From: a virus
IMG/VR virus record: IMGVR_UViG_3300031920_000109
Location: 1 to 27,537 of that record
Reading direction: 5' to 3' (one strand)
Length of the DNA stretch: 27,537 nt
Each line of letters begins with the position of its first letter. Position 1 is the first letter of the stretch. This document shows, in pieces, positions 4,433 through 23,444 of this stretch. The notes under the pieces were generated by a model. It saw only the letters and a list, made by a program, of their open reading frames with translations. It was not told the origin of the DNA and did not search any database. The position numbers and the translations under genes are program-made.

Positions 4433-4621
4433 CTAGCACGTCACCCGGTACGTGGGATCAATGCGATCGCCTTCCAGGCTGTCCCAGATATACACGTCCC
4501 GCCAGTCCTGATCCAGTTCGCGTTCCATGGTGGCCTTCGCCGCCTTCAGCGTGGGTTCACTGCATAGGGTGGCCATCCCGCCCTGGTAGTCTTCCGCCTT
4601 TATTTCAAATCGGTGTTTCAT
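4433..4621 (-). CDS. Hypothetical 62-aa protein
   Basis: The protein starts MKHRFEIKAEDYQGGMATLC and is mixed alpha/beta, with an amphipathic EPTLKAAKATMERELDQDW helix. It looks like a small globular phage protein with no recognised domain. It has its own leader rather than a coupled start: GTTGGAAACGT precedes the ATG and lies inside a GTTTCC...GAAACC dyad that recurs elsewhere in the window. It begins the block of small genes leading to the large terminase. Confidence 0.65.
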   Translation of the reverse strand: MKHRFEIKAEDYQGGMATLCSEPTLKAAKATMERELDQDWRDVYIWDSLEGDRIDPTYRVTC

Positions 4622-4623
4622 AC

Positions 4624-4645
4624 GTTTCCAACTGTACCAGAAACC
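4624..4645. promoter_or_regulatory. Candidate operator, GTTTCC/GAAACC dyad (site A)
   Basis: GTTTCC-N10-GAAACC occupies the short space between the small-terminase stop and the ATG of the 62-aa gene. The core TCCAACTGTAC is identical to one at 13142-13152. Related dyads are at 12601-12625, 13154-13182 and 16320-16344. The role is inferred from position and repetition. Confidence 0.4.
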
Positions 4646-5148
4646 TAGTGCTCTGTCTTCCCACTTGTCCCACCTGTAGGCGTCAGGGCCTTCCCTGCGC
4701 TTGCTCTGATTTCCAGAAGGCGTTCGATTTCGTCCCGCCGTTCCTTGGGTGACAGCGCCCGCACGTCCAGGCCGCCGTTGATCTTCACTTCCAGGGGCGC
4801 TTCCAGCCCGTCCAGCCTGGCGAGTAGGCGCAGCGTGGCCGCACCAGCCCCCGCGTTTTCAGTGGCGAAGGCCATGGCGAAGTTCGCTTTGACCATGGCC
4901 CTGAACTCTTCACGCCGCGCTGGGCGCAGTTCGCTTTCTTCCTTCGCCCACCGTTCCCGGATCATTCTGAAGTAGCGGGCCACCGTTCGGATCGTCACGT
5001 CATGGGCCACCGCCAGGCGTTCGCCCAGGGCCGTGGGGTGTTCGCCGCATATCATCCCCAGTTCAGCCTGAACCAGAAGCTGGGTGTTCAGTTTGGACAG
5101 CTGCCCAGCCTTGGGGGCCGCCTTGCTTTTCGCTTTTCGCTTTGTCAT
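4645..5148 (-). CDS. Putative terminase small subunit (HTH DNA-binding)
   Basis: A 167-aa protein with a Lys-rich N-terminus, followed at residues ~27-70 by a helix-turn-helix-like segment, LGERLAVAHDVTIRTVARYF. A long charged helical region comes next, and then a C-terminal segment that includes LSPKERRDEIERLLEIR. This is the usual layout of small terminases: an N-terminal HTH, a central oligomerisation domain and a C-terminal tail that contacts the large subunit. Small terminases recognise the packaging site. A good SD (AAGGATCACTG before ATG) supports the start. Phased GTCACAG repeats lie 23-72 bp upstream. It is about 2.1 kb upstream of the large subunit, farther than usual, so another DNA-binding role remains possible. 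Confidence 0.55.
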   Translation of the reverse strand: MTKRKAKSKAAPKAGQLSKLNTQLLVQAELGMICGEHPTALGERLAVAHDVTIRTVARYFRMIRERWAKEESELRPARREEFRAMVKANFAMAFATENAGAGAATLRLLARLDGLEAPLEVKINGGLDVRALSPKERRDEIERLLEIRASAGKALTPTGGTSGKTEH

Positions 5149-5170
5149 CAGTGATCCTTGATCCTAGTTC

Positions 5171-5220
5171 GTCACAGAACGTCACAGTTTGTCACAGCGT
5201 CCCACGAACGTCACGAACCG
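5171..5220. repeat. GTCACAG direct repeats phased at 10 bp
   Basis: GTCACAG occurs exactly at 5171, 5181 and 5191, with a related GTCACGAAC at 5210. One helical turn separates the copies, so they lie on one DNA face. They sit across the end of the 58-aa gene, just upstream of the small-terminase-like gene. Possible binding site for that protein (packaging site) or for a regulator; inference only. Confidence 0.45.
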
Positions 5221-5368
5221 TTCCCTGGCGTTCCCACCGCTTCCGGTTCAGTCTAGCCCAGCACCGCCACCCCACCCTGAACCACAGGGGAAGTTTCCGA
5301 TACATGGCCAGCAGTTCCCGTTCCAGCCGCGCCCGTGCTTCACCCACGGTTTCCCCTGGTTCCGTCAC
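5192..5368 (-). CDS. Small basic protein (58 aa)
   Basis: A GTG start at 5368 overlaps the upstream TGA in the GTGA arrangement, matching neighbouring junctions; the frame is open to an ATG at 5422, which would require a 58-nt overlap. The protein has an acidic start, an amphipathic helix ARARLERELLAMYRKL and a Trp/Arg-rich C-terminus. No family recognised. Its TGA lies inside the phased CTGTGAC repeats. Confidence 0.6.
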   Translation of the reverse strand: MTEPGETVGEARARLERELLAMYRKLPLWFRVGWRCWARLNRKRWERQGTVRDVRGTL

Positions 5369-5613
5369 CACCCCACCGCTTCCAGGTTTGCATGGATCCG
5401 ATTCCCGCAGGGACACTTCCACCTGAACACTGGGCCACAGAACGCCGCCGCCGTCAGTTCATCGTCCCGCATTGTGAAATCCATAACTGGGGCCAGCATC
5501 ACCAGATCCTGAACCCGGTATTTCTTGCACTCTGGACAGAACGCCGCGCTTCGTTGTTCAGGTGGGTTCGCTGGCCGCTCCACCATGGCTGGGCCGCGAT
5601 ACACGTGGATCAT
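5365..5613 (-). CDS. Zinc-ribbon-like small protein (82 aa)
   Basis: ATGA overlap with the upstream gene fixes the start at 5613. The protein shows FCPECKKYRVQDLV (CxxC near residues 26-29) and, about 40 residues later, WKCPCGNRI (CxC plus G). Together these resemble a four-Cys zinc ribbon bracketing a hydrophobic strand. Many phage proteins of this type are uncharacterised. It belongs to the coupled chain 10772-5192. Confidence 0.7.
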   Translation of the reverse strand: MIHVYRGPAMVERPANPPEQRSAAFCPECKKYRVQDLVMLAPVMDFTMRDDELTAAAFCGPVFRWKCPCGNRIHANLEAVGW

Positions 5614-5825
5614 GGTTCCGCCTTGGCCTTCAGTTCCGCCGCCATTTCCATCACGAACCGATCCGCGTCACACTCCACCGCTTCCGCGCAGCACAGCCGG
5701 ATCATGCGCCTGATATATCCCAGGTGAATCTGGGGATCGCCCAGTGGCACGAATTCCCCGATCGTGTCCCCGTCCCCTTTCCCCAGCCGCACACGGATCA
5801 GCCCGTCTTCCAGTTCGATCTTCAT
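5610..5825 (-). CDS. Hypothetical acidic 71-aa protein
   Basis: Starts MKIELEDGLIRVRLGKGDGD, suggesting two beta strands, followed by helices with a CC pair (RLCCAEAVECDADRF) and an MEMAAELKAK end. It is joined by ATGA overlaps to both neighbours. No known domain. Codon use matches the adjacent genes. Confidence 0.65.
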   Translation of the reverse strand: MKIELEDGLIRVRLGKGDGDTIGEFVPLGDPQIHLGYIRRMIRLCCAEAVECDADRFVMEMAAELKAKAEP

Positions 5826-6160
5826 GCCCTGAACCCACAGGCTGGCGAGTGGCCCAGGCTAGCGATCACCTGGCCACTACGGTAGCAATTAGGGCACGCA
5901 TCCCGCCGCGCCACAGGTGTGCCCAGGCTGAAGTTCCCGGACTCGATCAGATCGCTGATTTCTGGGTGTGACAGGCCGTGATCATCGTCCGCCAGCGTCA
6001 TTTCGAACTTCAGCTGGTTTCCTTCCAGCGTCACCACGTATTCCGTCACCATTGGATTCGCCATGATCACGTCACCGCGCTGTGGCCCCTGGATTTCCTT
6101 CAGAATGATAACCGCCCGCACGGGTTCCGTGAACTTCAGGGCCTGGGTGATCGGCTTCAT
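5822..6160 (-). CDS. Hypothetical 112-aa protein with C-terminal CxxC
   Basis: The first ~90 residues look like a beta-rich globular domain (PVRAVIILKEIQGPQRGDV, then TEYVVTLEGNQLKFEMTLAD). A DACPNCYRSGQ knuckle and a later CGF lie near the C-terminus. Start and stop each share ATGA overlaps with neighbours. No family recognised. It directly follows the metzincin-like gene, but nothing in the sequence shows a functional link. Confidence 0.7.
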   Translation of the reverse strand: MKPITQALKFTEPVRAVIILKEIQGPQRGDVIMANPMVTEYVVTLEGNQLKFEMTLADDDHGLSHPEISDLIESGNFSLGTPVARRDACPNCYRSGQVIASLGHSPACGFRA

Positions 6161-6765
6161 CGGTATCGCTCCACGATGGCCGCCGCATCCTTGTCATTCA
6201 CGCGCACCAGTTCGCCGCACACGTGGGGATTCATCACGCCAGGGGTTCCTGGGTGGTTTTCGTCCGCCAGGCCCAGCACGTGCCCCAGTTCGTGGGCCAC
6301 TATGCAAAGCTGGGTGTGGATATCGCCCGGAAAATTCACGTGGACTTCCCACAGGTCCACCCCATCAGGCCGCGCTGGGCATTGGTACGCTGTGGCGCTG
6401 TGGCCGTCTTCCGCTTCAGGCCGCCATGGATCCCCGCACGGTTCCCCGTTCGCTGATAGAATCCGCACCACCGATTCCCCAGGCTGTGCGCCTTCCAGGG
6501 AACCAGCGTGGAACAAGTCCTGGCCCCGTGCGCCATCCACCGTGGGCATTATGTCATTCCACAGAAGGATCGCGTGATACGTGGGCCGATCGAAATCGTC
6601 CCCATAGTCCACCATGATCGGAACCGTGGGGCGCCTGGTGGCCGCTGGGTTCCACACCAGTTCCGCCGCCTGTGGCCCTGTGCGATACATATAGCCGATC
6701 AGGACCATTCCCGCGATGGCCAGGGCCAGCAGCCCAAGCATTCTGAAGATCTTCGTTTTCGTCAT
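6157..6765 (-). CDS. Membrane-anchored metzincin-like zinc metalloprotease
   Basis: A 202-aa protein. Residues ~6-26 form a hydrophobic signal-anchor (IFRMLGLLALAIAGMVLIGY), and the rest should lie in the periplasm. The catalytic motif is VAHELGHVLGLADENH: His158, Glu159 and His162, then Gly165 and a third-ligand position filled by Asp168. This HExxHxxGxxD form occurs in snapalysin-type metzincins, whereas matrixins normally have His. A Met-turn GVMNP follows at 177-180. The domain before it contains the expected strand/helix elements. The start is fixed by an ATGA overlap. Its target is unknown: it could process host envelope or phage proteins. It is far from the lysis cassette. Confidence 0.8.
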   Translation of the reverse strand: MTKTKIFRMLGLLALAIAGMVLIGYMYRTGPQAAELVWNPAATRRPTVPIMVDYGDDFDRPTYHAILLWNDIMPTVDGARGQDLFHAGSLEGAQPGESVVRILSANGEPCGDPWRPEAEDGHSATAYQCPARPDGVDLWEVHVNFPGDIHTQLCIVAHELGHVLGLADENHPGTPGVMNPHVCGELVRVNDKDAAAIVERYR

Positions 6766-7076
6766 TCTGTTTCCCCCGTTATCGGTTGGAATATCCGTTC
6801 CATAATTCCAGCAGAGTATTCCGCGAAGTCCCCCATGGCGTCCGCTGGCAGTTCTTCCGCGTCCAGCTTTTCGGTGATTCGCGCCGCCGTCAGCTTCAGG
6901 TCCGCCAGGCGCGCTGGCGTGATCTTACGGTCCAGGAATTGCTGAAGTTCACACCTGATCATTTCCTTCAGCCCCAGCAGCCTGGCTTCATAGCTGTACA
7001 GTTCCGCCGTGGTCAGCGAGTCCAGGCACGTGTGATCGCCACCGTGGGTTTCCCGGCATTTCATGCAAGTGATCAC
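6762..7076 (-). CDS. Hypothetical 104-aa protein with N-terminal Cys/His knuckle
   Basis: The first 17 residues, MITCMKCRETHGGDHTC, contain CxxC plus His and Cys and could bind one zinc. The remainder is helical (LTTAELYSYEARLLGLKEMI and later AARITEKLDAEELP), consistent with a coiled coil. ATGA overlaps join it to the genes on either side. It sits just before the metzincin-like gene in transcription order. Function unknown. Confidence 0.65.
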   Translation of the reverse strand: MITCMKCRETHGGDHTCLDSLTTAELYSYEARLLGLKEMIRCELQQFLDRKITPARLADLKLTAARITEKLDAEELPADAMGDFAEYSAGIMERIFQPITGETE

Positions 7077-7354
7077 GCGTCCCCCAGCAGCAGCTTCAGC
7101 CGCTTCGCCACGCCAGTGGTGCTCCTGTTCAGTTCCAGCAGTGGAAGCATTCTTCGCAGTTCGCCTTCCAGGCCGCGCAGGCGCAGCAGTTCAGCCGCTT
7201 CGCCTTCCATGGCCTGATCGTGGCCATGCCGCATTCCCCGCTGATATGGATCATCGTGCCCAGGTGGGCCGTTCACCGCCTTCACCGTGTGAATCCGCAC
7301 CCGCTGGCCGCCCGCCTTGTTCATCGCCTTCACCATTCGATCTTTCTCACCCAT
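7073..7354 (-). CDS. Hypothetical helical 93-aa protein
   Basis: Start at ATG 7354, preceded by AGGGA six bases upstream; a GTG at 7357 is less likely. The N-terminal half is basic, and the middle (HDDPYQRGMRHGHDQAMEGE) is His/Asp-rich. The end is a leucine-rich amphipathic helix. It overlaps the upstream gene by 8 nt. No family recognised. Confidence 0.6.
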   Translation of the reverse strand: MGEKDRMVKAMNKAGGQRVRIHTVKAVNGPPGHDDPYQRGMRHGHDQAMEGEAAELLRLRGLEGELRRMLPLLELNRSTTGVAKRLKLLLGDA

Positions 7355-7670
7355 CACGATTCCCTGTAATATTGCGAACCGGGATCCCCAGGGCCATCGC
7401 GTGATCCCGCTCCATCGCCATCCCGCCGGATACGTGCGGGCCCACCAGCCACAGTTCGTGGCACACGCCGATCACCGCCATGTCACGCCGTAGGCCAGCC
7501 GCCCGTTCTATTGGGTTCGCGTCATCCCACACTTCGCATTCAGTGATCCAACTGGCGACGATCGCCACGTCAGGGTGGGTTTCTTCCAGTTCGCGAACCA
7601 GAACCCTGGCCTTCGCCAGATTCCCTTCCACGTCCCCGGATACTGGGTGGGCCATGTAAACCACAAGCAT
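7347..7670 (-). CDS. DUF4406 / nucleoside 2-deoxyribosyltransferase-like protein
   Basis: The ATG at 7670 overlaps the upstream stop (TGATG); the longer open frame to 7772 is a shadow. The 107-aa protein opens with MLVVYMAHPVSGDVEGNLAK, the Rossmann-like first strand and loop of this family. It continues with a WxxEC segment and ends with VGPHVSGGMAMERDHAMALG, where a Glu after a Gly-rich turn matches the catalytic region of nucleoside deoxyribosyltransferases. Family members exchange bases on deoxynucleosides or cleave the N-glycosidic bond; many phage members are uncharacterised. The enzymatic role here is inferred. Confidence 0.7.
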   Translation of the reverse strand: MLVVYMAHPVSGDVEGNLAKARVLVRELEETHPDVAIVASWITECEVWDDANPIERAAGLRRDMAVIGVCHELWLVGPHVSGGMAMERDHAMALGIPVRNITGNRDG

Positions 7671-7930
7671 CAGATCGTTCCGCCTGGCCGAACTTCCAGG
7701 GACTTGTCCACCGCCACGCGTAGTTTCACGTGGGATTCCTTCAGCTGGCGCTTCAGTTCCCGGATCTGCCACACGATGGCTTCAGGGGCCACTTCATAGC
7801 AGTCCGGAACGGGCCGACCGTCCAGTAGGATCTGGGTGATTTTAACCAGTGCCGCTTCCGCTGCCAGCGCCCTGGCCGTCATCATGGCCAGCGCCTCCTC
7901 ATTCGCCTTCAGTATTTCGATCTCGCCCAT
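7670..7930 (-). CDS. Hypothetical coiled-coil 86-aa protein
   Basis: The ATG at 7930 has a well-placed GGAG; an in-frame ATG at 7945 lacks a good SD. The protein is mostly helical: IEILKANEEALAMMTARALA, then WQIRELKRQLKESHVKLRVA, with a short loop between them. It likely forms a helical hairpin or coiled coil. No family recognised. It overlaps the Cys-containing upstream gene by about 32 nt. Confidence 0.6.
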   Translation of the reverse strand: MGEIEILKANEEALAMMTARALAAEAALVKITQILLDGRPVPDCYEVAPEAIVWQIRELKRQLKESHVKLRVAVDKSLEVRPGGTI

Positions 7931-8144
7931 TTTCTTCACTCCCATGTCTGTTTCTACGGTCAGCGAGTATCGCCAGCCTGATTCCTTGAACCGTCCAGAA
8001 CTTCATGGGGCCACCATTCACGTGGCACCGTTCCAGGCACTGGTCACAGGGTTCCGCGTACACGCGCCCCCTGTTCCGCATCGCCGCCAGCACCTTGTCC
8101 AGCAGCCCGTCAGTTCTCTCATTACAAAACCCGCAGCCCATCAT
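7899..8144 (-). CDS. Small Cys-containing protein (81 aa)
   Basis: Starts MMGCGFCNERTDGLLDKVLA in an ATGA overlap with the upstream gene. A later CDQCLERCHV motif about 30 residues on completes a possible four-Cys zinc site. The C-terminal ~20 residues are charged and overlap the next gene's start, so the real folded part may be about 65 residues. Function unknown. Confidence 0.6.
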   Translation of the reverse strand: MMGCGFCNERTDGLLDKVLAAMRNRGRVYAEPCDQCLERCHVNGGPMKFWTVQGIRLAILADRRNRHGSEENGRDRNTEGE

Positions 8145-8593
8145 TCACCCCACGCGCCTGGGCGCTGCCCAGCTTCGAATTCGTCCTGGATACGGTACGC
8201 CTGGCGTTCCGCCCAGATCCGCATATATGCCGAATGCCACGGGCCGAACCTGATCGCCGCCCACTCCCACAGAAACTGGATCCCATAGGCTGCGCCGAAT
8301 AGCAGGCCCAGGCCCATGATCCCCTGGATCGTGTGGACGCGTTCGTGGACGCGCAGGCTGGGCCGATCCCACTGGCGTTCGCTTGCGTACCAGATCACGT
8401 TGCAGCCCAGCGATTGCGCACCAGGCCGCCCCCAGATACGCGTCACCCCGTCCCGTTCCTTGGCCACCATTTCCAGGCACCCCGCCCGCCAGCGCCACGC
8501 ACGAACGCCGTAGGGTATCGCCAGCAGCAGGGACGCCAGGACGTTCAGCGCTGTGAAGGGAACCAGCAGAAAATACCACCAGCGCCACTTCAT
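8141..8593 (-). CDS. HExxH membrane protein, gluzincin-like
   Basis: A 150-aa protein with a membrane segment at ~7-30, a soluble loop (31-80), then LRVHERVHTIQ with His83, Glu84 and His87 forming HExxH. A second hydrophobic stretch (91-113) follows, and then IWAERQAYRIQDEFE, where Glu129 is placed like the third ligand of small gluzincins (pattern HExxHxxQ ... ExxAY). I infer a compact zinc-peptidase fold embedded in or next to the membrane. Activity is unproven, and such phage proteins are poorly described. Start and stop are both in ATGA overlaps. Confidence 0.6.
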   Translation of the reverse strand: MKWRWWYFLLVPFTALNVLASLLLAIPYGVRAWRWRAGCLEMVAKERDGVTRIWGRPGAQSLGCNVIWYASERQWDRPSLRVHERVHTIQGIMGLGLLFGAAYGIQFLWEWAAIRFGPWHSAYMRIWAERQAYRIQDEFEAGQRPGAWGE

Positions 8594-8868
8594 ACGCCCG
8601 GCCCCATCTTCGCCGCCAGTTCAGTCCGCGCCGTTTCCTTCGCGCCTTCAGGTAGCGCGTTGAACCATTGGGACAGGCGCACGTGCCCCACCTTGATCGA
8701 TTCCTTGAACCCCAGGCGATCCTGGATCATGGCCACGTCCACGCCGGTTTCCTTCGCCTTCCGGACGCGTGCCTGCTGATATTCATAGCGCGCATAGGCC
8801 AGTAGAATGGCGTCATCCTTGCGCCGCTTAAACCTTGATCGCCGCTTCGTTTTGTCTTTTCGTTTCAT
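8590..8868 (-). CDS. Basic 92-aa protein
   Basis: The ATG at 8868 overlaps the upstream TGA (ATGA); the frame is open to 8901, but the extension is a shadow of the preceding gene's end. The N-terminus is extremely basic (MKRKDKTKRRSRFKRRK), followed by a helical LLAYARYEYQQARVRKAKE and a segment IQDRLGFKESIKVGHVRLSQ that recalls a small helix-turn-helix. It may bind nucleic acid; this is inference. No named family. Confidence 0.65.
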   Translation of the reverse strand: MKRKDKTKRRSRFKRRKDDAILLAYARYEYQQARVRKAKETGVDVAMIQDRLGFKESIKVGHVRLSQWFNALPEGAKETARTELAAKMGPGV

Positions 8869-9209
8869 ACTCCGCTTCCACCATAGTTCACGTGGTGCCA
8901 CCGCTTACAGTTTGGACAGCACCATTTCAGTTCATGCCCGTCCGGACTCAATTCCAGCCCGATTTCGTGGCAGTGCCTACAGCTAAAATCCTGGCGCACC
9001 TGGCCCGTGGGTAGCGATTCGTCAGGAACCAGCGCGATCCCACGGAACGCGAACCCCGCCCATTCAGGGCGTGGCCCCATTTCCGGCATGGTGCCCACTA
9101 TGCCTTCGCAGGTTTCGCGGTTCGCCCTGAACTGCGCCACCACTGGTTCCGTGCTTCGCGTCATTTCATCGATCTGGCGCTTCGCTTCCATCATGTCTTC
9201 CAGTGTCAT
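8865..9209 (-). CDS. Zinc-ribbon protein (114 aa)
   Basis: The N-terminal half is helical (MTLEDMMEAKRQIDEMTRST). The C-terminal half holds FSCRHCHEIGLELSPDGHE and WCCPNCKRWHH, a CxxC-N(~20)-CxxC zinc ribbon ending close to the C-terminus. ATGA overlaps mark both ends. Function unknown. It is one of eight Cys-rich products in the accessory block. Confidence 0.7.
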   Translation of the reverse strand: MTLEDMMEAKRQIDEMTRSTEPVVAQFRANRETCEGIVGTMPEMGPRPEWAGFAFRGIALVPDESLPTGQVRQDFSCRHCHEIGLELSPDGHELKWCCPNCKRWHHVNYGGSGV

Positions 9210-9508
9210 TTCGGCCGCACCTTCCGCCAGCGAACTGGCACCGTCTTACCCATCACGCGCATGTCTTCAGCTGCCAGGGACTCGTTCATTCGAAGCATGG
9301 CCGCGCCGTCCCAATAGTCCCACGCCACAGTGGCCGTGTACCACTTCCCGGATTTCGCCTGGACTTCGATTTCATCACCGCCCAGCACCTGGGCCATGGT
9401 TCCCACTTCGCCCACTTTGCAGTTCTTCCACGCCCGCTTCCCCGTCAGCTTCCGTTCTTCCGTGAACATGGGGCCAGTAGCACCGCGATCAGCGTCCCCA
9501 TGTCTCAT
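9206..9508 (-). CDS. Hypothetical beta-rich 100-aa protein
   Basis: Starts in an ATGA overlap with the resolvase-like gene. A central run (VGEVGTMAQVLGGDEIEVQA, then SGKWYTATVAWDYWDG) suggests a small beta-barrel such as an SH3-like fold. The C-terminus is basic (VPVRWRKVRPK). An internal ATG at codon 14 is an alternative start. No family recognised. Confidence 0.65.
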   Translation of the reverse strand: MRHGDADRGATGPMFTEERKLTGKRAWKNCKVGEVGTMAQVLGGDEIEVQAKSGKWYTATVAWDYWDGAAMLRMNESLAAEDMRVMGKTVPVRWRKVRPK

Positions 9509-9957
9509 TCCGAAACCGCCGCCACTGTCACTTCCACACCCACCACTTCGCCTGGCTTCGCGTACATTTTGGACGCCACCAGGCGCGTCACGTAGCTGTC
9601 ATCCGTCCACGCTTCAGCGTCCGTCAGCGAGTCTTCCACGCATCGCACCAGTTTGGAAAGATCTGGGCTGCTGATCTTCGCCAGGGGCGCACCCTTCGCC
9701 AGCTCCCCGGACTTCAGCACGTGCGAAGGTGGCCGTGAAAAGCGGAACCGAACGCCCAGCACCACTGGACCGTCGATCAGTTCGTGGCCCTGTTCGCGCA
9801 TCGCCACCGTGGCCATCCGTGTCACCTTCACGCGCCAGGCGCTGTGGCCCTTCGTTGATTCGTAGATCATGGGTTTTTTCTTAGTCCCACGCCGCCCCAC
9901 GAACTTGATCCTGTGGTTCCCCTGTGGAACCGGGACGCCAGGAACGTGGAACTTCAG
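9505..9957 (-). CDS. rusA: RusA-like Holliday junction resolvase, possible CTG start
   Basis: The 150-aa form begins LKFHVPGVPVPQGNHRIK, the usual first strand of RusA-family proteins. The active-site region is SSPDLSKLVRCVEDSLTDAE followed by AWTDDSYV, matching the RusA pattern DLDN...K...DAL...DD. The second Asp and the Lys of E. coli RusA are Ser and Arg here, while the first Asp and the later Asp pair remain. RusA dimers cut Holliday junctions. The start is unusual: no ATG/GTG/TTG lies at the family start, but a CTG overlaps the upstream TGA as CTGA, like the ATGA junctions around it. The alternative is an ATG at 10212 giving an 85-residue low-complexity extension that would fully overlap a credible gene. 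Confidence 0.8.
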   Translation of the reverse strand: MKFHVPGVPVPQGNHRIKFVGRRGTKKKPMIYESTKGHSAWRVKVTRMATVAMREQGHELIDGPVVLGVRFRFSRPPSHVLKSGELAKGAPLAKISSPDLSKLVRCVEDSLTDAEAWTDDSYVTRLVASKMYAKPGEVVGVEVTVAAVSE

Positions 9958-10208
9958 GACAGCGCCGCCGTTACCATCAGCGCGCCCATCGTCATCAGCG
10001 CCAGCGCCACGAACGGCCACACCAGGTGGGCTGGGCGTTCGCCGTAGAACTGCGCCCACTGGTAAAGCTGCGCCCTGTTCATCCCCTGGGGATTTTCCGG
10101 ATCCGGTTTCCGGATCTGCTCTGGGTGCTTCCACGTCACTGGCGCCCACTTTGACAGCTTTCCGGTTTCCCCGCGTACTATTTCCAGCCTTGCTTTTTCT
10201 TTTGCCAT
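9954..10208 (-). CDS. Small C-terminally anchored membrane protein (84 aa)
   Basis: The ATG at 10208 directly follows the upstream TGA. The N-terminal part is charged and Trp/Pro-rich (SKWAPVTWKHPEQIRKPDPE), and the last ~25 residues are a single hydrophobic span, HLVWPFVALALMTMGALMVT, ending at the stop. This looks like a tail-anchored inner-membrane protein. Codon use is typical of the genome, which argues that this frame rather than the overlapping RusA extension is translated. Function unknown. Confidence 0.65.
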   Translation of the reverse strand: MAKEKARLEIVRGETGKLSKWAPVTWKHPEQIRKPDPENPQGMNRAQLYQWAQFYGERPAHLVWPFVALALMTMGALMVTAALS

Positions 10209-10772
10209 TCATTCCCGTCCGCCTGTTCTTGTGATCATGCACTCCCCCGGTGGGTTTGCTGGTTTGCAGTTCGTCCAGAATGCAGACCACTGGCCTGGTG
10301 ATTTCTGGCGTTCGCCGTGTTTTCTGTGGACTTCAAGATCTTCGTACTCCCCCACGCATTCCACCAGTTTTCCGTTCGCCATGCCCATGTCAGGGCCACC
10401 CCACACGTAGCCGATCCGATCCCGTGGCCACACGATCCAGCCTGGAAGTTCGAACGGCGACTGGCGAAGGTGGCGGAACTGTTCCACCGAAAACGCGCAC
10501 CACACGAAGCGCATGGTTCCCAGGTGCCGCGCCTGTTCCAGTTGGTATTTCGCCCACCATGCCTGCGCCGCTCCACGTCCGCCCGGGTGGTTGCAGTAGG
10601 TCCGCTTCGCCCACTTGCGATCCAGCCCTGATTCGTGGCCGCCGCCTTCGTAGTCCATGGGACACGGATCCCACAGGTATTCGCCGCCCATGGTGGCGAA
10701 CGCCCACGCCATCCATTCTTCAGGCGTCCACCAGGTGTGGGCATAGTTCCCGTGCATCTTCGCCAGGTTCAA
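10209..10772 (-). CDS. Dam-like DNA N6-adenine methyltransferase family protein
   Basis: A 187-aa protein. It opens with YAHTWWTPEEWMAWAFATMG and continues with YLWDPCPMD, the layout of phage Dam-type methylases (tryptophan-TP near the start, then DxCA/P). The catalytic position, normally NPPY or DPPY, reads CNHPGGRG (Asn, His, Pro, Gly). A later WCAFSVEQFRHLRQSP and WPRDRIGYVWGG continue the Rossmann-like pattern. I judge it a divergent member; whether it methylates DNA is uncertain because the NPPY aromatic is missing. It overlaps the helicase loader by ATGA. Confidence 0.5.
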   Translation of the reverse strand: MNLAKMHGNYAHTWWTPEEWMAWAFATMGGEYLWDPCPMDYEGGGHESGLDRKWAKRTYCNHPGGRGAAQAWWAKYQLEQARHLGTMRFVWCAFSVEQFRHLRQSPFELPGWIVWPRDRIGYVWGGPDMGMANGKLVECVGEYEDLEVHRKHGERQKSPGQWSAFWTNCKPANPPGECMITRTGGRE

Positions 10773-11428
10773 AGTCCTACCCGCCGATCCGCGCCCTGAA
10801 GTGATTTCCAGCGCGCATTCGCCCGCAGCCTGGACAGGATCCGCGCCAGATAGCGTTCCTTGAACTGCGCAGGCGTCAGGTTCGTGGTGATTATCAGCCT
10901 GGCGAACCGCCCCGCGTACACGTCGATCAGTTCGTCCAGGTCCGCCAGGAAATTCCCTTTCGCGTCAGCGTATTCAGCGCCCAGGTCATCGAACACCAGC
11001 GCCGTGGCGCCCTTCCACTGCGCCCGCGCTTCCCGATCGTATCTGGAAACCGTTTCAAATTCAGAAACGCGCAGGAATACGGGCCGCGATCCGCCGTGTT
11101 CAGCCAGCCACCTGATCGCCGCCAGCGTCTTCCCGGATCCCACTCCACCTGCTAGAATCCGGATCCCGCGTTCGTCCGTGTGGAAATCGCGCAGGGCCAG
11201 AACAGATTCCGCGCCCACGTCGAACCACTCCGCGAAGGAATCACGCACAGCCCGTTCAGGGGCCCCGCCTTCCAGGACGCGCACACGTGCCAGCTTTTCG
11301 TCCGTGGCCCGTGTGGCCGCTTCCTGGGCTTCCAGTTCAGCCTGGATCCCAGCATCGCGGGCCGCCCACTCCGCTTCCGTCAGGTTCGGAAGTTCCAGGG
11401 CCGCCAGGGTGTCAGCTCCGAACTTCAC
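10769..11428 (-). CDS. DnaC/IstB-like helicase loader ATPase
   Basis: This is a 219-aa AAA+ protein. The N-terminal ~85 residues are helical and probably bind the replicative helicase. Walker A is GGVGSGKT (residues ~94-101), Walker B ALVFDDLGAEY (~143-153), sensor-1 LIITTNL, and an Arg-finger-like RILSRLRAN lies near the C-terminus. Such loaders open the DnaB ring and place it on the melted origin. It sits directly after the replication initiator-like gene with an ATGA overlap, as in the lambda O-P or DnaT-DnaC type pairs, and before nucleic-acid-modifying genes. It would depend on host DnaB unless a phage helicase lies outside the window. Confidence 0.88.
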   Translation of the reverse strand: MKFGADTLAALELPNLTEAEWAARDAGIQAELEAQEAATRATDEKLARVRVLEGGAPERAVRDSFAEWFDVGAESVLALRDFHTDERGIRILAGGVGSGKTLAAIRWLAEHGGSRPVFLRVSEFETVSRYDREARAQWKGATALVFDDLGAEYADAKGNFLADLDELIDVYAGRFARLIITTNLTPAQFKERYLARILSRLRANARWKSLQGADRRVGL

Positions 11429-12348
11429 AGCTGAACTTCCCCGCCTTCGTGGGCTGAATGGGGCGCAGGTTCCACACGTCCCACGCGAACGTCATCGTGG
11501 CCCCTGGCGTTCCCGTTCCGCTGGCCCGCCATCGTGTCCCAGTGCTTCCGCAGCCTGGCGCCATCGTGAACCAGTGGCGCCCAGAATTTATCGCGCTGGC
11601 TGAAGGCGATCATGGCGTCGATCGTGGCCCACTCGTGTTTCTTGCTGTGAATGCGCAGCTGGTCAGCAGACTTCAGGATCGCCCGCACCCGTTCGGCTGG
11701 CGTCATCTTGGCCAGGTTCCCGTCCGGATTGTTTTCCCGCACGTAGTCCGCCAGAACCTGGGCCGCCAGGTGGGCCCGTTCAGGAATGGAATCAGGATCC
11801 AGGGCTTTGGGTTTCGCCTTACCCTTGGGTTTGGGTTCTTCATCGGAAGCGCCCGTGGCGGTTTCGCCTGAATACTCTGATCTATTCTCTTCTAGTCTAT
11901 TCTCTTCTAGTCTTGACGTTCCCACGTCGCTTTCGTCCCATCCCGTTCCCGCCGTCCCACCGTCACCGTCAGGTTCCGCCGCGTCCCTTTGCTTTTCTCG
12001 CCACTTGCGTGTTCTTTCAGTGCTGGTGGTGTTTTCGCTCCACTGTCCAGACCATCCCAGAATCTGGATCCCGTCATCTTCCAGCGCGATCAGCCCTTCC
12101 TTCACGCACGCCCGCAGCGCGTCCTTCACACGCCGGAACGCTTCCGCAGCTTCGAACTCGCGATCGATCTGAAGGTAGCGCACCAGATATTCCGGACTGG
12201 CCATCGCCACCGAAACCTTCCCCTTCCGGCCGTGGGCCTTGTTCAGAAGTAGCAGATTGCTGTAAATCGTGGTGGCCATGAATCCAGCAGCGAAACACCT
12301 GGGATTCATTGGCAGCAGGGCGTCCACCTTCGCCCATATCGCGCCCAC
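11425..12348 (-). CDS. Replication initiation protein (winged-helix, O/DnaD-like)
   Basis: GTG start at 12348, overlapping the HTH gene's TAG (TAGTG). The first ~105 residues form a winged-helix-like domain (FMATTIYSNLLLLNKAHG, then REFEAAEAFRRVKDALRACV and an EGLIALEDDGIQILGW wing), ending in STERTRKWREKQRD, a common linker in phage replication proteins. A low-complexity acidic linker contains SRLEENRLEENR, encoded by an AT-rich tandem repeat. A C-terminal helical domain with WATIDAMIAFSQRDKFW follows. In this type the N-terminal domain binds the origin and the C-terminal part contacts the loader encoded next. I infer the origin may lie within this gene. Confidence 0.72.
   Translation of the reverse strand: MGAIWAKVDALLPMNPRCFAAGFMATTIYSNLLLLNKAHGRKGKVSVAMASPEYLVRYLQIDREFEAAEAFRRVKDALRACVKEGLIALEDDGIQILGWSGQWSENTTSTERTRKWREKQRDAAEPDGDGGTAGTGWDESDVGTSRLEENRLEENRSEYSGETATGASDEEPKPKGKAKPKALDPDSIPERAHLAAQVLADYVRENNPDGNLAKMTPAERVRAILKSADQLRIHSKKHEWATIDAMIAFSQRDKFWAPLVHDGARLRKHWDTMAGQRNGNARGHDDVRVGRVEPAPHSAHEGGEVQL
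11881..11910. repeat. AT-rich 15-bp tandem repeat, candidate origin element
   Basis: TCTATTCTCTTCTAG occurs twice without a gap (11881-11895 and 11896-11910), within a locally AT-rich stretch of the replication initiator gene and encoding LEENR twice. Iterons in the initiator gene are known in lambdoid phages, where ori lies in gene O. Function here is inferred. Confidence 0.4.
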
Positions 12349-12599
12349 TAGATCTTACTCGATTTCCACGCCACCTTCGTGAATGGAACCGCGCCCTTTG
12401 TCAGTTCGGTGATCTTCCACCCCAGTTCCCGGCTGGGCATAAACTCGCCCCCCGCCAGCGCGTACACCGTGGACAGCCCGCAGCCCAGCGCTTCCTTCAC
12501 GTCCATGGGGGCCATCCCGCTGGCCTTCATCCATTCCCCGAACTTCGTGATCCGTGGTGGATTCACGCGTGGCCGTCCGCCTTTGTTTTGATCTTCCAT
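12348..12599 (-). CDS. Helix-turn-helix transcription regulator (83 aa)
   Basis: Start at the ATG at 12599, with GGTGG five bases upstream; the in-frame ATG at 12653 has no SD. The protein opens with MEDQNKGGRPRVNPPR, a basic GRP tail. Residues ~20-60 read FGEWMKASGMAPMDVKEALG then CGLSTVYALAGGEFMPS, resembling a Cro/CI-type HTH with a turn at ALGCGLSTVYAL. Such proteins bind operators as dimers. A GTTTCC...GAAACC dyad lies immediately upstream (12601-12625), consistent with autoregulation and with control of the other genes carrying this dyad. It precedes the replication genes. Confidence 0.7.
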   Translation of the reverse strand: MEDQNKGGRPRVNPPRITKFGEWMKASGMAPMDVKEALGCGLSTVYALAGGEFMPSRELGWKITELTKGAVPFTKVAWKSSKI

Positions 12600-12600
12600 T

Positions 12601-12625
12601 GTTTCCACCACTACCACTGGAAACC
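12601..12625. promoter_or_regulatory. Candidate operator, GTTTCC-N13-GAAACC dyad (site C)
   Basis: Perfect 6-bp arms with a 13-bp spacer (25 bp overall) directly upstream of the HTH gene start. The spacing equals site D at 16320-16344. The right arm covers part of the leader with the SD, so binding could block both transcription and translation initiation. Confidence 0.4.
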
Positions 12626-12678
12626 TGTGGCTGTCCAGTTTACTGCTCGCCATCCGAGATCGCAGCCAGCCGATACGT

Positions 12679-12705
12679 GTCAGTTAGCGTCAGTTAGCGT
12701 CAACC
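12679..12705. repeat. GTCAGTTAGC direct repeats phased at 10 bp
   Basis: GTCAGTTAGC at 12679 and 12689, then GTCAACC at 12699: three GTCA boxes one helical turn apart, about 80-105 bp upstream of the HTH gene. On the minus strand the group begins TTGACG, which could serve as a -35 element, but no good -10 was seen at 17 bp. The rest of the gap 12626-12848 holds only very short unconvincing frames. Confidence 0.35.
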
Positions 12706-12848
12706 GCCGCCACCGTCTTCAGGTTCCGCTATTCTTGGCCATTTCCGTGGTTCGCTGTTTCCCACTCAATGGCAGCCGCCTGGTGATCATGTCCACCGTT
12801 TCCTGGCGCCTGGGCATTGCTCAAAGCCCACACCGTGGCCGACCATCT

Positions 12849-13136
12849 TCACCCGTACCAGATCCGCCCTAGATCCCCAGCTTCCTGGGCCACGCTGGCC
12901 AGCTGGCGAACGCGCCGCACCAGTTCAGGATCCTGGGCATTTGACAGGATCCGCCTGCATTCCTTCGCCACGTCACGCGCCGCGAACTCCCCCACCATTT
13001 CTGTGGTTTCATCCATCAGCAGCCCCATGGCGCGCAGTACCAGTCCAGCACCTTCCTGGTGGAAGTTCGCCCAGCGCACGCCCATTGTGTCCATCTCGTC
13101 CGCACGTTCACCGATTATTCCAAAGGTCACTGACAT
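12849..13136 (-). CDS. Hypothetical helical 95-aa protein
   Basis: Starts MSVTFGIIGERADEMDTMGV and is largely helical afterwards (AARDVAKECRRILSNAQDPE, then LVRRVRQLASVAQEAGDL). No known domain. A GGAG lies only 4 nt before the ATG, which is a short spacing. The same frame is open upstream for a further ~36 sense codons without an ATG, GTG or TTG. The gene may therefore be the remnant of a longer one disrupted by a frameshift, or may start at the given ATG. Confidence 0.6.
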   Translation of the reverse strand: MSVTFGIIGERADEMDTMGVRWANFHQEGAGLVLRAMGLLMDETTEMVGEFAARDVAKECRRILSNAQDPELVRRVRQLASVAQEAGDLGRIWYG

Positions 13137-13141
13137 CAGGC

Positions 13142-13182
13142 TCCAACTGTACTGGAAACCGTTCTGGTTTCCAATAGGAAAC
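13142..13182. promoter_or_regulatory. Cluster of GGTTTCC/GGAAACC half-sites (site B)
   Basis: Contains TCCAACTGTACTGGAAACC (13142-13160, 17 of 19 identical to site A), then the inverted pair GGAAACC-N5-GGTTTCC (13154-13172) and GTTTCC-AATA-GGAAAC (13167-13182). Overlapping dyads upstream of a start codon are typical of operators. Function inferred. Confidence 0.4.
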
Positions 13183-13234
13183 GCGCCGCACCCATCGTCC
13201 CAGCACTCGTGCGCATCATCAAGCGCCTGCCGTG

Positions 13235-13264
13235 CTAACTCATCGCGTCATCGACTACACTCAT
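13235..13264 (-). CDS. Nine-codon frame with strong SD (leader or frameshifted gene start)
   Basis: AAAGGAGG sits 7 nt before an ATG at 13264 that overlaps the TGA of the 84-aa gene (ATGA). The frame MSVVDDAMS ends in TAG after nine codons. In the -1 frame, translation would continue DELARQALDDAHECWDDGCG and onward into the 95-aa gene. The strong SD suggests a real start whose frame was lost, or a short leader peptide. Confidence 0.35.
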   Translation of the reverse strand: MSVVDDAMS

Positions 13265-13515
13265 CGCTTCCCCTCCTTTACTCTAAGCATTTTGCCTACC
13301 TCATCCCTCAGCAGATCGACATGCTGATAAGTAGCCCCTACCGTCATATTGCCAACGTTCGCAGATACTTTATCTCCATGCACGTCTTCGCCATCTAGTA
13401 GTAAGATATACCGCACACTGCTACCACTGATAGCGTCATCAATGACCGCGCCAAGCTCGTACGCTACTACCTCTAGAGCTCGCCTACTATCATCTGTTCC
13501 CTCGTTATCACTCAT
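13261..13515 (-). CDS. Hypothetical 84-aa protein with foreign-looking composition
   Basis: Start at ATG 13515 (MSDNEGTDDSRRALEVVAYE), with AAGG about 8 nt upstream; an ATG at 13557 adds a Lys-rich prefix. The protein looks globular alpha/beta: VVAYELGAVIDDAISGSS, then VRYILLLDGEDVHGDKVSAN, then TVGATYQHVDLLRDEVGKML. No family recognised. The DNA is richer in A/T and uses GAG, CTC and CTA-type triplets that are scarce elsewhere in the window, so it may have been acquired recently. The 64 nt upstream (13558-13621) contain two CATCACAGC copies 17 bp apart and nothing else recognised. Confidence 0.6.
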   Translation of the reverse strand: MSDNEGTDDSRRALEVVAYELGAVIDDAISGSSVRYILLLDGEDVHGDKVSANVGNMTVGATYQHVDLLRDEVGKMLRVKEGKR

Positions 13516-13621
13516 TCGCTTACCCTTTTTTTTCTTCAGCATCGTGAGCCAGTACACCCCAGGGCCATCACAGCCCCAGGCGCATCACAGCGAACCGCCA
13601 CGGATCGCGCTTCAGTCTAGC

Positions 13622-15187
13622 TTATTCGAACTCTTCACCCGGTGGTGGGCCGCCGCGCATCCATTCCGGTTCCGCCGTGGTGGTGCTGTTTTCCAGCTTC
13701 GCCTGGCGCTGGCTGGTTTCAGCCTGGACTGATTCGTGATCCCGCTCCATCGCCGCTTCCTCCATCGCCGCTTCATGGTCAGGTGGTGACTTCGCCGTCA
13801 GTTCCTGGGCTTTGACTAGGTTCCTGGGATCGCCGTTCTGGACGTAGTACGTCAGACACTTGGAAGGGGTCAGGTTCATGGGGGCCACTTCAGCCTTCCG
13901 CTGTTCCTGGGCCGCTTTCGATCGGCTGGGTTTCTTCGCGCCAGGTGCCACGCCCTTCGCTTCCGCGCTTGCAACTGGGATCGATTCATTGGGCGCAGCT
14001 TGCCCAGCGTCCAGTTTTGGTTCCGCCACTGGTTCCGCCACTGGTTCCGCCACTGGCTTCGCCACTGGTTCCGCCACTGGCTTCGCCACTGGCTTCGCCA
14101 TGGGTGCTGGTTTCTTCGCGCCAGGTGCCACGCCCTTCGCTTCCGCGCTTGCAACTGGGATCGATTCATTGGGCGCAGCTTGCCCAGCGTCCAGTTTTGG
14201 TTCCGCCACTGGCTTCGCCACTGGTGCTGGTTTCTTGGCCGCCAGCTTGTCCTTCACCGCCTGGGCCCCTTTGGCCGCCTGGGTGGCTGGCGCCGCCCGT
14301 GGGGCTGCTGTGCCTTGCTGATCGCGCCTATGTTCGATCGTGTCCTGCCAGTTCGTTTGGCCATCCTTGATCGCCATGTAAACCTGGCGCAGTTCCACCA
14401 GTTCGGCTGGGCTGATCTTATCCAGATCGTGCGCCAGGTATTCTTCCAGGTCCACTGGCTGGACATTGAACGCCGCGAAGGCGTCCGCCAGCTTCCGCCG
14501 TTCAGCGTCAGGATCCTTCGCTGCCTGGTTCTGGGCCGTGGCCTTGATCGCCTGTTCGGCTTCATCCTGTAGCCATCCAGGGATCAGGCGCAGCCCGTTA
14601 GTTCGGATCGCCTTCGAAACCAGGGATCCCTGTTTGTTCAGCAGATCGTCATCAGTGGCCGCCACAATGTAAACCGTTTGGCCACCCGCGCCCGTGCGCC
14701 GCCCCAGGGCCGTTTGACCATTCCGCAGCTTCGAACGCTCCACCGTTTTCTGAACAGTGATCTGGGTGGAATGGCACACGTTCCGTTCGTAGTCCATCAC
14801 TATCACAGCCACGATCCGCTTCACGTCATCGTCATAAACCGTCACCGCGCTGGTTTCGCAGTTCCCCAGAATTTGCAGGGCCTGTTCCACGAACCGAATT
14901 GATAGCCCTTCGATCCCCGCGCCCACTGGCTTCCGGTATCGGGCCACTTCCGCGAAACTGGGCCGCTGGCATTCCCGCAGCAGTTCAGTACGTACTTGAT
15001 CAAAGTTCCGTGGATTGTGCATGGCCATGATCGATCTGGCTTCCACCACAGCCTTCGCCTGGGCTGCCATGGCCGTGCTGGCCGTTTCCTGTACCGTGGC
15101 CAGCTGCTGGCCGCCGAATGAATCGCTGCGCACCATGGCGCCGCCGTTTTGTCCGTTTTGCATTTCGTTTTTCTCCAGTGTCTTCAT
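13622..15187 (-). CDS. Putative single-strand annealing protein with repeat-rich tail
   Basis: A 521-aa protein. The N-terminal ~215 residues (FGGQQLATVQETASTAMAAQ, RPSFAEVARYRKPVGAGIEG, VYIVAATDDDLLNKQGSLVS) belong to a phage family I associate with RecT/ERF-type annealing proteins encoded next to exonucleases. Such proteins anneal complementary single strands in phage recombination. The middle region is helical. Residues ~305-445 are low-complexity: a 60-aa unit partly repeated twice and a PVAE/PVAK tetrapeptide run, then an acidic C-terminus (PPPGEEFE) like that of SSB-interacting tails. The gene follows a YqaJ exonuclease with a 5-nt gap, supporting a two-component recombination system. 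The family call is from pattern memory. Confidence 0.55.
   Translation of the reverse strand: MKTLEKNEMQNGQNGGAMVRSDSFGGQQLATVQETASTAMAAQAKAVVEARSIMAMHNPRNFDQVRTELLRECQRPSFAEVARYRKPVGAGIEGLSIRFVEQALQILGNCETSAVTVYDDDVKRIVAVIVMDYERNVCHSTQITVQKTVERSKLRNGQTALGRRTGAGGQTVYIVAATDDDLLNKQGSLVSKAIRTNGLRLIPGWLQDEAEQAIKATAQNQAAKDPDAERRKLADAFAAFNVQPVDLEEYLAHDLDKISPAELVELRQVYMAIKDGQTNWQDTIEHRRDQQGTAAPRAAPATQAAKGAQAVKDKLAAKKPAPVAKPVAEPKLDAGQAAPNESIPVASAEAKGVAPGAKKPAPMAKPVAKPVAEPVAKPVAEPVAEPVAEPKLDAGQAAPNESIPVASAEAKGVAPGAKKPSRSKAAQEQRKAEVAPMNLTPSKCLTYYVQNGDPRNLVKAQELTAKSPPDHEAAMEEAAMERDHESVQAETSQRQAKLENSTTTAEPEWMRGGPPPGEEFE
13930..14212. repeat. 103-bp direct repeat plus 12-bp tandem repeats
   Basis: 13930-14032 is repeated without mismatch at 14110-14212, exactly 180 bp (60 codons) away. 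Between the copies, 14019-14102 holds seven 12-bp units of GGTTCCGCCACT or GGCTTCGCCACT, encoding the PVAE/PVAK run; two more units end copy two. All changes keep frame. The perfect identity suggests recent duplication. Confidence 0.9.
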
Positions 15188-15192
15188 GGGTG

Positions 15193-16266
15193 TTATTTAC
15201 TCCAGGATCGCGGAACTACAAAGCGCCGTGATCCTGGTTTTGGGGTGGTGTTCTTCGCAGTCACTTCATCCAGGTTCGGAACTGGAACCGTTCCGCTTGA
15301 TTCGGCCGTGATCAGTTCCAGGGCATTCCGCAGATCGCCAGCCAGGGCTTTCCAGTCCACCTTCGTGGTGTCCTTCGAACGCCGCCAGGTGATCTTCCGC
15401 TTCACTTCCCTGGGCTTCCCGTCCTTGTCAGTGTCCATTTCTAGCCACTCAAGACCGCTATTCGCTCCGATCGCTTCCTTCAGGAACTGAACGTGGCGCG
15501 CTTCATCGGCTTCCAGGGCGTGGATTTCTTCCCGCAGCTTGCGAAGTCCTTGGGCGATTCCCAGATCTTCCGGATTCGCTTCCACCATTTCTTCGCTGTT
15601 CTTGGGGAACCTTCGCGCCAGGTGCGCGCTGAATCCGTCGCTGCCATCCGGATCCAGTTCCTTCCCGCCGATCACGTGATCATCCCAGAACGCCCGCCCA
15701 GCTTTGATCAGCATGTCCGCCAGTTCCTGATCGTGGGTGATCGTGTAGTCCACTGGCACGCCATCCATAAACGCCGTCAGATCCCATCGCGTCAGGTGCC
15801 CACCCCATGGCTTCGAACGCGCCACGATCAGGTTCCACTGGCATTGGACAAGTTCCCACCTGGGAACCTGATCCGTGCCTGGTTCGCCGTACAGGTGGGA
15901 CAGCCACCCGGTGTGGGTTTTCCCTTCCCACCCCCACGCTGGGATCGCGTCGTTTGGCCCAGGCGAATAGGCCAGGCCGTCAGGTGTGGCAATGATCCAG
16001 GGTTCCGCTTCGTGGCGCAGGGTTCCAATATTGTCACCGCCCACCACCGCCATGCCGAACCGCTGGGCGTAGTCCTTCCGGATCGGTCCTTCCAGAATGT
16101 TCCCCCACCGAACCCGATCGGTTTCGATGAATGGCGCAGGGGTTCCCCGCTTGTCCAGTAGTACGTCAATGGGCCCGCCGTAGTTTGAAAGCCCGCAGAT
16201 CTTCGTGATATCCGTGGCCGTGATCCCGGTCTTCCGGATATCCAGCTGTTCCTGTGAAAGCGACAT
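15193..16266 (-). CDS. YqaJ-type viral recombinase exonuclease
   Basis: Start at ATG 16266 with a strong AAAGGAG SD; the frame is open to 16299. The 357-aa protein shows the lambda-exonuclease/YqaJ fold: GITATDITKICGLSNYGG (residues 14-31), GNILEGPIRKDY with Glu59, ATPDGLAY with Asp96, and WEGKTH with Glu114 and Lys116 as the E-x-K catalytic pair. WELVQCQWNLIVA, the QxQ-like helix, follows. A C-terminal helical region (LGIAQGLRKLREEIHALEAD) is typical of YqaJ proteins. It resects DNA 5'-3' to give single strands for the adjacent annealing protein. The GAAACC dyad D lies 54 bp upstream of the start. Confidence 0.87.
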   Translation of the reverse strand: MSLSQEQLDIRKTGITATDITKICGLSNYGGPIDVLLDKRGTPAPFIETDRVRWGNILEGPIRKDYAQRFGMAVVGGDNIGTLRHEAEPWIIATPDGLAYSPGPNDAIPAWGWEGKTHTGWLSHLYGEPGTDQVPRWELVQCQWNLIVARSKPWGGHLTRWDLTAFMDGVPVDYTITHDQELADMLIKAGRAFWDDHVIGGKELDPDGSDGFSAHLARRFPKNSEEMVEANPEDLGIAQGLRKLREEIHALEADEARHVQFLKEAIGANSGLEWLEMDTDKDGKPREVKRKITWRRSKDTTKVDWKALAGDLRNALELITAESSGTVPVPNLDEVTAKNTTPKPGSRRFVVPRSWSK

Positions 16267-16319
16267 TTGCGCTCCTTTCCCGTGGTTATGTCCCGCCACC
16301 CTATCCCGTGGGTGTGACA

Positions 16320-16344
16320 GTTTCCAGGGGAATCGCTAGAAACC
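16320..16344. promoter_or_regulatory. Candidate operator, GTTTCC-N13-GAAACC dyad (site D)
   Basis: The same arms and spacing as site C at 12601-12625, in the 116-bp gap between the endolysin stop and the exonuclease start. The gap also has a minus-strand TTTTTT run near 16358-16363, but I see no good stem before it. The gap probably holds the promoter for the recombination genes. Confidence 0.4.
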
Positions 16345-21730: not shown

Positions 21731-21745
21731 GGCCGCCAGCCTACA

Positions 21746-21778
21746 CCATGGGGGCGATAGTTTCCCAGCGCCCCCTGG
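21746..21778. other. Intergenic GC-rich hairpin
   Basis: CCA(T)GGGGGCG and CGCCCCCTGG pair into a ~10-bp stem with one bulge and a 12-nt loop, between the 515-aa gene's stop and the 173-aa gene's start. No T-run follows on the minus strand, so it is not a classic intrinsic terminator. It may protect mRNA ends or tune read-through. Confidence 0.45.
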
Positions 21779-23334: not shown

Positions 23335-23393
23335 TTGGACGGTTCCCCTTCAGTGATGGTTTGAAAACACTCCAGTGTCGGCCAGGTGGGCTT

Positions 23394-23444
23394 CGCTTCC
23401 CCGTTCGGATTCTATCGCTTCCCCGTTCGGATTCTATCGCTTCC
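23394..23444. repeat. 22-bp tandem direct repeat
   Basis: Two exact 22-bp copies (23394-23415 and 23416-23437), beginning CGCTTCCCCGTTC and ending GATTCTAT, with a partial third start (CGCTTCC) to 23444. It covers the stop of the 167-aa gene and the start of the 99-bp gap before the 515-aa gene. A weak hairpin (ACAC/GTGT) followed by TTTT on the minus strand lies at 23363-23379. Confidence 0.85.

Follow-up and report, generated by a model that had tools for sequence, protein, structure and literature searches.

The window analyzed here, the whole stretch of DNA studied, is the entire viral record IMGVR_UViG_3300031920_000109 (27,537 bases, 60.6% G + C), and every gene that can be recognized in it lies on the minus strand. 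Transcribed from right to left, the gene order starts with baseplate and tail genes, a lysin gene, and the genes for a YqaJ/RecE-like exonuclease and a RecT-like protein. Small unknown genes come next, followed by a helix-turn-helix (HTH) gene, DnaD- and DnaC-like replication genes and RusA, and the order ends, after many further small genes, with a terS-like gene, terL and a portal-like protein. No capsid genes were recognized in the window, so the record is probably incomplete, and no repressor or integrase gene was recognized on this incomplete contig. A megablast search with the first 25 kb of the window gave no match among 50,697 phage records. The RecT-like protein (gene at 13622–15187) belongs to a PHROG of unknown function and has a long Pro/Ala/Lys-rich C-terminal repeat tract, encoded by 12–36-bp repeats at 14018–14100. 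A 202-aa protein encoded among the small early genes (6157–6765) is hydrophobic in an N-terminal segment and weakly matches matrixin/M6-like metalloproteases (HELGHVLGL).

The initial annotation had described four inverted repeats with GTTTCC and GGAAAC arms (dyads A to D), and all four were found where it had placed them, in the leaders of the four genes it had named. Their orientation is identical and follows the coding strand. Dyad A (4624–4645, minus strand; GGTTTC-TGGTACAGTT-GGAAAC-gtATG) occupies the 23 nt separating the terS-like gene from a 62-aa gene to which no function is assigned (4433–4621, minus strand). Dyad B (13142–13182, minus strand) reads GTTTCC-TATT-GGAAACC-AGAAC-GGTTTCC on the sense strand, continuing with AGTACAGTT-GGAGCC-tgATG of a 95-aa gene (12849–13136, minus strand), and thus has three half-sites that are exact and a fourth that is degenerate (GGAgCC). 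No relatives of this 95-aa gene were found among the phage records. An exact 13-bp repeat (AACGCGCCGCACC) is present within it (12909–12921) and at the upstream edge of dyad B (13180–13192).

Dyad C (12601–12625, minus strand; GGTTTCC-AGTGGTAGTGGT-GGAAAC-aATG) ends one base from the ATG at 12599 of the HTH gene (12348–12599, minus strand, 83 aa) and has perfect 7-bp arms, GTTTCCA and TGGAAAC; it would lie within coding DNA if the gene began at the alternative ATG at 12653 (101 aa). Dyad D (16320–16344, minus strand; GGTTTCTAG...CTGGAAAC; GGTTTC-TAGCGATTCCCCT-GGAAAC) heads the exonuclease-RecT operon. It is located about 78 nt upstream of the best start of the exonuclease gene (15193–16266, minus strand; ATG 16266 with Shine-Dalgarno sequence GGAAAGGAG, a GTG at 16299 being possible), with 53 nt between GGAAAC and this start.

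The right ends of dyads A, B, and C are 1–2 nt from the ATG, and the distance from the start of the left arm (GGTTTC) to the ATG is 24, 24, and 26 nt, respectively. Two exact arms are found only in dyad C and in the inner dyad of B; the arms carry one mismatch in A, one in D and two in the start-proximal dyad of B, and the distance from GTTTCC to GGAAAC varies (4, 9, and 12 nt). The 13-bp spacer reported as common to C and D is shared in length, but not in sequence. The core reported for A and B comprises 11 exact bases (TCCAACTGTAC) that occur exactly twice in the window.

Further repeats were observed. The 249-nt gap ahead of the HTH gene, adjoining the DnaD/DnaC-like genes, holds an iteron-like direct repeat at 12679–12702 (GTCAGTTAGC ×2.4; sense GCTAACTGAC). 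Just upstream of the terS-like gene (5170–5218), a 10-bp unit (CGTCACAGAA; sense TTCTGTGACG) recurs in about five degenerate copies, possibly a packaging or regulator site. A perfect 22-bp tandem repeat with promoter-like TAGAAT boxes (TCGCTTCCCCGTTCGGATTCTA ×2.4; 23393–23444) extends from a gap into the end of a 167-aa gene.

Weight of the dyad motif against chance

The significance of the motif varies with the null used. In the whole window, exact dyads number 2 against 0.01 in dinucleotide shuffles, and those with up to one mismatch 9 against 1.1. Arms such as TCCAGG and GCCAGC, among others, form far more whole-window dyads than GTTTCC, as a result of coding (codon) bias, and the whole-window excess was therefore discarded as evidence. 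Since these counts are misleading, we restricted the test to the intergenic gaps, of which there are 14 (about 1.5 kb). Here the comparison with shuffled sequence proposed in the initial annotation came out in favor of the motif: GTTTCC/GGAAAC is the top dyad arm and is present in 4 of the 14 gaps. Of 1000 shuffled gap sets, three had some arm in as many gaps, and none had this arm in as many. In addition, a two-block model was trained on three sites at a time and used to rank the positions of the two strands, about 55,000 in all; each held-out dyad ranked directly behind its three training sites.

These results bear on the explanation that the four dyads came together by chance and were picked out by eye in an arm-rich genome. 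In its favor, apart from the many arms that give more whole-window dyads, some arm reached at least four segments in 197 of 1000 random placements of 14 segments in the window. Such arms reflect coding motifs, however, and the GTTTCC arm did so in 0 of 1000 placements; it is also the top arm in the real gaps, and the leave-one-out recovery is clean. We consider a chance cluster very improbable. The dyad motif is real, directional and tied to leaders.

Related loci and the candidate binder

Single-protein scans with the exonuclease, the HTH protein and RecT (genomes) identified no close relative, and a scan with the terminase gave eight distant relatives, none of which carries the dyad. Alignment of the exonuclease with its distant homologues led to two loci, L127 and L128. 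L127 (4 kb) matches the window at 70% for RecT and 57% for the lysin. L128 is part of a 52.6-kb record (G003) that is syntenic with the window (exo-RecT, HTH-dnaD-dnaC, RusA, terS, terL, and portal). The exact dyad, GTTTCC-N3-16-GGAAAC, occurs in 0 of nine related records, five of which have HTH homologues, one of them with the HTH-dnaD-dnaC order. The initial annotation had taken absence from relatives with the same HTH gene to speak against a regulon; to the letter this is what we found, but at such divergence it does not decide the question.

Wider searches gave a similar picture. The dyad is present in none of 72 loci from a RecT alignment scan, and distant relatives found with the baseplate protein (genomes) and a tail protein (viral contigs) are likewise without it. 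A locus with an exonuclease at 35% (L068) has no comparable leader, and a covariance model of the four sites gave nothing significant in 18 relative loci (best E 0.64). In viral contigs, the exact core of A and B had no match. The dyad-plus-ATG pattern was found there in 34 stretches, which fall into several recurring unrelated families, and the sole similarity of these stretches to the queried window proteins is a weak terminase similarity in two.

The 83-aa HTH protein shows a Cro-like pattern, with no family match. Homologues at 35–37% identity in alignment are found in L131, L132, L134, and G003, and a weaker one in G009 (overall range 30–40%). When the HTH regions are aligned, LSTVYALAGG of the window protein stands opposite DSSVYNMRNA or PSTVYNLRNG of the homologues. 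The recognition-helix region differs, which makes a different target of the window protein plausible, and the absence of the dyad at 35–37% identity fits a change in specificity no less than a mistaken choice of binder. A structure predicted for the protein with no alignment had a pLDDT of 53 and was unusable, so that a fold search with this model is meaningless. Judged from gene position, the HTH protein is the candidate binder, as the simplest autoregulated option, with its own start abutting dyad C.

Promoter-like elements at the dyads

An early-gene promoter-like element ahead of the exonuclease operon (16298–16326, minus strand; TGGAAA-N17-TAGGGT) includes the right arm of dyad D as its −35 part and is kept in L127 and G003. 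From this arm onward, ahead of the exonuclease gene, the sequences are CCCCTGGAAACTGTCACACCCACGGGATAGGGT in the window, CCCCTGGGAATTGTCACACCCCCGTGGTAGTCT in L127 and GGACTGGAAACCGTCACGGCCGCGTGGTAGCGT in G003. The conserved form is a −35 TGGRAA, 17 bp and a −10 TAGNNT, with the spacer conserved too, and we infer that TGGRAA-N17-TAGNNT is a promoter. Just upstream of the element in L127 lies a perfect 17-bp palindrome (L127:2007–2023; CCTGGAATAATTCCAGG), and the GTTTCC arm is absent there. It looks as if the operator had changed while the promoter stayed, in a single case that was noticed post hoc.

A model built from the three sequences identified one further strong copy in the window (21738–21767, minus strand; TGGGAAACTATCGCCCCCATGGTGTAGGCT), with 21.5 bits against a best score of 19.2 bits in ten shuffled windows. 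This copy is located ahead of a 173-aa tail-region gene, resembles the D element through TGGCGG past the −10 box, and is without the left dyad arm. The broader pattern TGG[AG]A[AT]-N16-18-TANNNT has only three matches in the window, all in sense-strand leaders: D, the leader of the 173-aa gene, and B. The promoter-like pair inside B is TGGAAA (13168–13173), N16, TACAGT (13146–13151), and one overlapping A is AAGACA (4654–4659), N17, TACAGT (4631–4636). Both have four plus four matches to the −35 and −10 boxes at 16–18 bp, as do 1.4% of random positions, and the two are non-independent, the −10 box TACAGT being common to them. Dyad C has only a marginal match (TGGACA, N16, GGTAGT). A standard promoter and terminator scan picked up nothing at the dyads, indicating that the promoters are weak by consensus.

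Promoter-like sequence is thus overlapped by three of the four dyads (A, B, and D) in differing registers; in D the match sits beside the dyad center, at the −35 box, and not across the center. The differing registers suit operators better than promoter boxes alone. In D, and probably in B, a promoter −35 box rather than an operator half-site alone accounts for the GGAAAC of the repeat.

Probable operators over promoters and the alternative readings

We favor the reading, at a probability of roughly 0.5, that the dyads are operator-like DNA sites over phage promoters and specific to this lineage. By binding the GTTTCC and GGAAAC half-sites, a regulator would obstruct RNA polymerase or modulate its activity: at D over the promoter of the exonuclease-RecT operon, with the right arm as −35 box, at B over the promoter of the 95-aa gene, and at A and C over the leaders of the 62-aa and HTH genes, where the promoter-like sequence is weaker. 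The sites would define a small regulon made up of genes for recombination and replication and a single gene near the terminase boundary. The analysis shows the sites themselves, where they lie, their common orientation and the conservation of the element at D; promoter activity, protein binding and the identity of the protein we infer. Of the phage regulon suggested in the initial annotation, the set of regulatory sites is supported by position, orientation, leave-one-out ranking and overlap with promoter-like sequence, including the conserved element at D; the binder it named, the 83-aa HTH protein, is a candidate. Counting against operators are the variable arm spacing, which is unusual for one rigid dimer, the absence of the dyad from the nine relatives, and the uniform orientation, which a symmetric operator does not require. 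The weakness of the promoters by consensus, the marginal match in C, the position of the dyad beside the −35 box in D, and the lack of a recognized repressor or integrase gene count in the same direction.

The uniform orientation along the coding strand (4 of 4 dyads) is what would be expected if the dyads acted as RNA, as sense-strand leader hairpins that tune translation, perhaps with a bound protein. Each would form a 7-bp stem with a 7- or 10-nt loop and a weak Shine-Dalgarno GGA in its 3′ arm, and B would switch between mutually exclusive hairpins. The right arm is indeed at the Shine-Dalgarno position in A, B, and C, the left and right arms pair in 27 of 28 cells, and G-U on the sense strand accounts for four of the five departures from symmetry. 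One loop is common to A and B, and varying loop length is unproblematic for RNA. For B, the predicted best fold is a stable GGAAACC-AGAAC-GGTTTCC hairpin, the alternative being two flanking hairpins. Dyads, however, fold by construction; the folding z-scores are modest, the start regions of A to C are unexceptional among gene starts, no pair is changed on both sides, and an Rfam search gave no match at gathering score. Moreover, D does not lie at the Shine-Dalgarno position, its start codon being about 53 nt away, and its right arm is accounted for by the −35 box. Action as RNA thus appears unlikely, and a dyad used at two levels, as DNA over the promoters and as RNA over the ribosome-binding site, with B as a hairpin switch, is less probable still. 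About as doubtful as action as RNA alone is that the repeats are mainly parts of promoters for the host RNA polymerase (TGGAAA as −35, TACAGT/TAGNNT as −10) and that the left arm has no regulator of its own, leader DNA copying between A and B having perhaps spread them. GGAAAC is the −35 box of the conserved element in D, L127, and G003 and also of the copy at 21738–21767, where the left arm is missing, and the 11 exact bases common to A and B agree with copying. This explanation leaves unaccounted for the GGTTTC left arm, which is invariant across the sites, and in C GGAAAC directly adjoins the ATG and cannot serve as the −35 box of that gene.

With respect to operators over promoters, the favored reading, Cro/CI-type operators of temperate phages are dyads over early promoters with constant half-site spacing for one dimer. 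The dyads described here may resemble them in overlapping promoter-like sequence at A, B, and D, and one of them stands at the start of a small HTH gene, but they differ in that the half-site spacing (4, 9, or 12 nt) is not constant and in that no repressor or integrase was recognized on the incomplete contig.

The nearest parallel is ESAS of cluster K mycobacteriophages, imperfect inverted repeats that lie shortly before start codons and have 4–13-bp spacers (PMC3203893); those of Adephagia are reported to fall on SigA-like promoters, under a regulator yet to be identified (PMC11373665). Shared with SAS/ESAS are start-associated imperfect inverted repeats with a variable spacer, at non-structural genes and mostly in one orientation (PMC3203893, PMC11373665, PMC12699233). 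However, SAS/ESAS arms are 15–17 bp as opposed to about 7 bp, the sequences differ, and SAS/ESAS have 6–9 or more copies compared to four dyads here. The 13-bp SAS consensus at the ribosome-binding site (GGGATAGGAGCCC) is absent from the A to D leaders, as read directly. Measured against the definition of ESAS as paired 17-bp imperfect repeats, A to C fit in spacer (4–13) and start proximity, but not in arm length or sequence. No relation of the window phage to cluster K phages was found, and the dyads are ESAS-like in layout, but are not ESAS. Similarly, cluster EG Microbacterium phages have 18-bp inverted repeats (PMC7302621) and cluster O mycobacteriophages 17-bp repeats (PMC4351075). In these phages, too, short inverted repeats recur in small intergenic regions close to starts (PMC7302621, PMC4351075), but they have a fixed 2–3 bp spacer, exact arms and 8–34 copies, whereas the spacer varies and the arms are imperfect here.

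Taken as operators over promoters, the dyads are probably ordinary on/off control sites similar to the repeats of other phages; the set is useful for annotation, and general understanding is unchanged by it. Use of the dyad at two levels, if true, would mean that a single regulator could set transcription and translation jointly. For an otherwise unannotated phage group, the dyads provide a small defined set of control sites together with one promoter-like element that is kept across diverged relatives, so that promoter and operator may be separated by comparison, the promoter being kept where the dyad changes.
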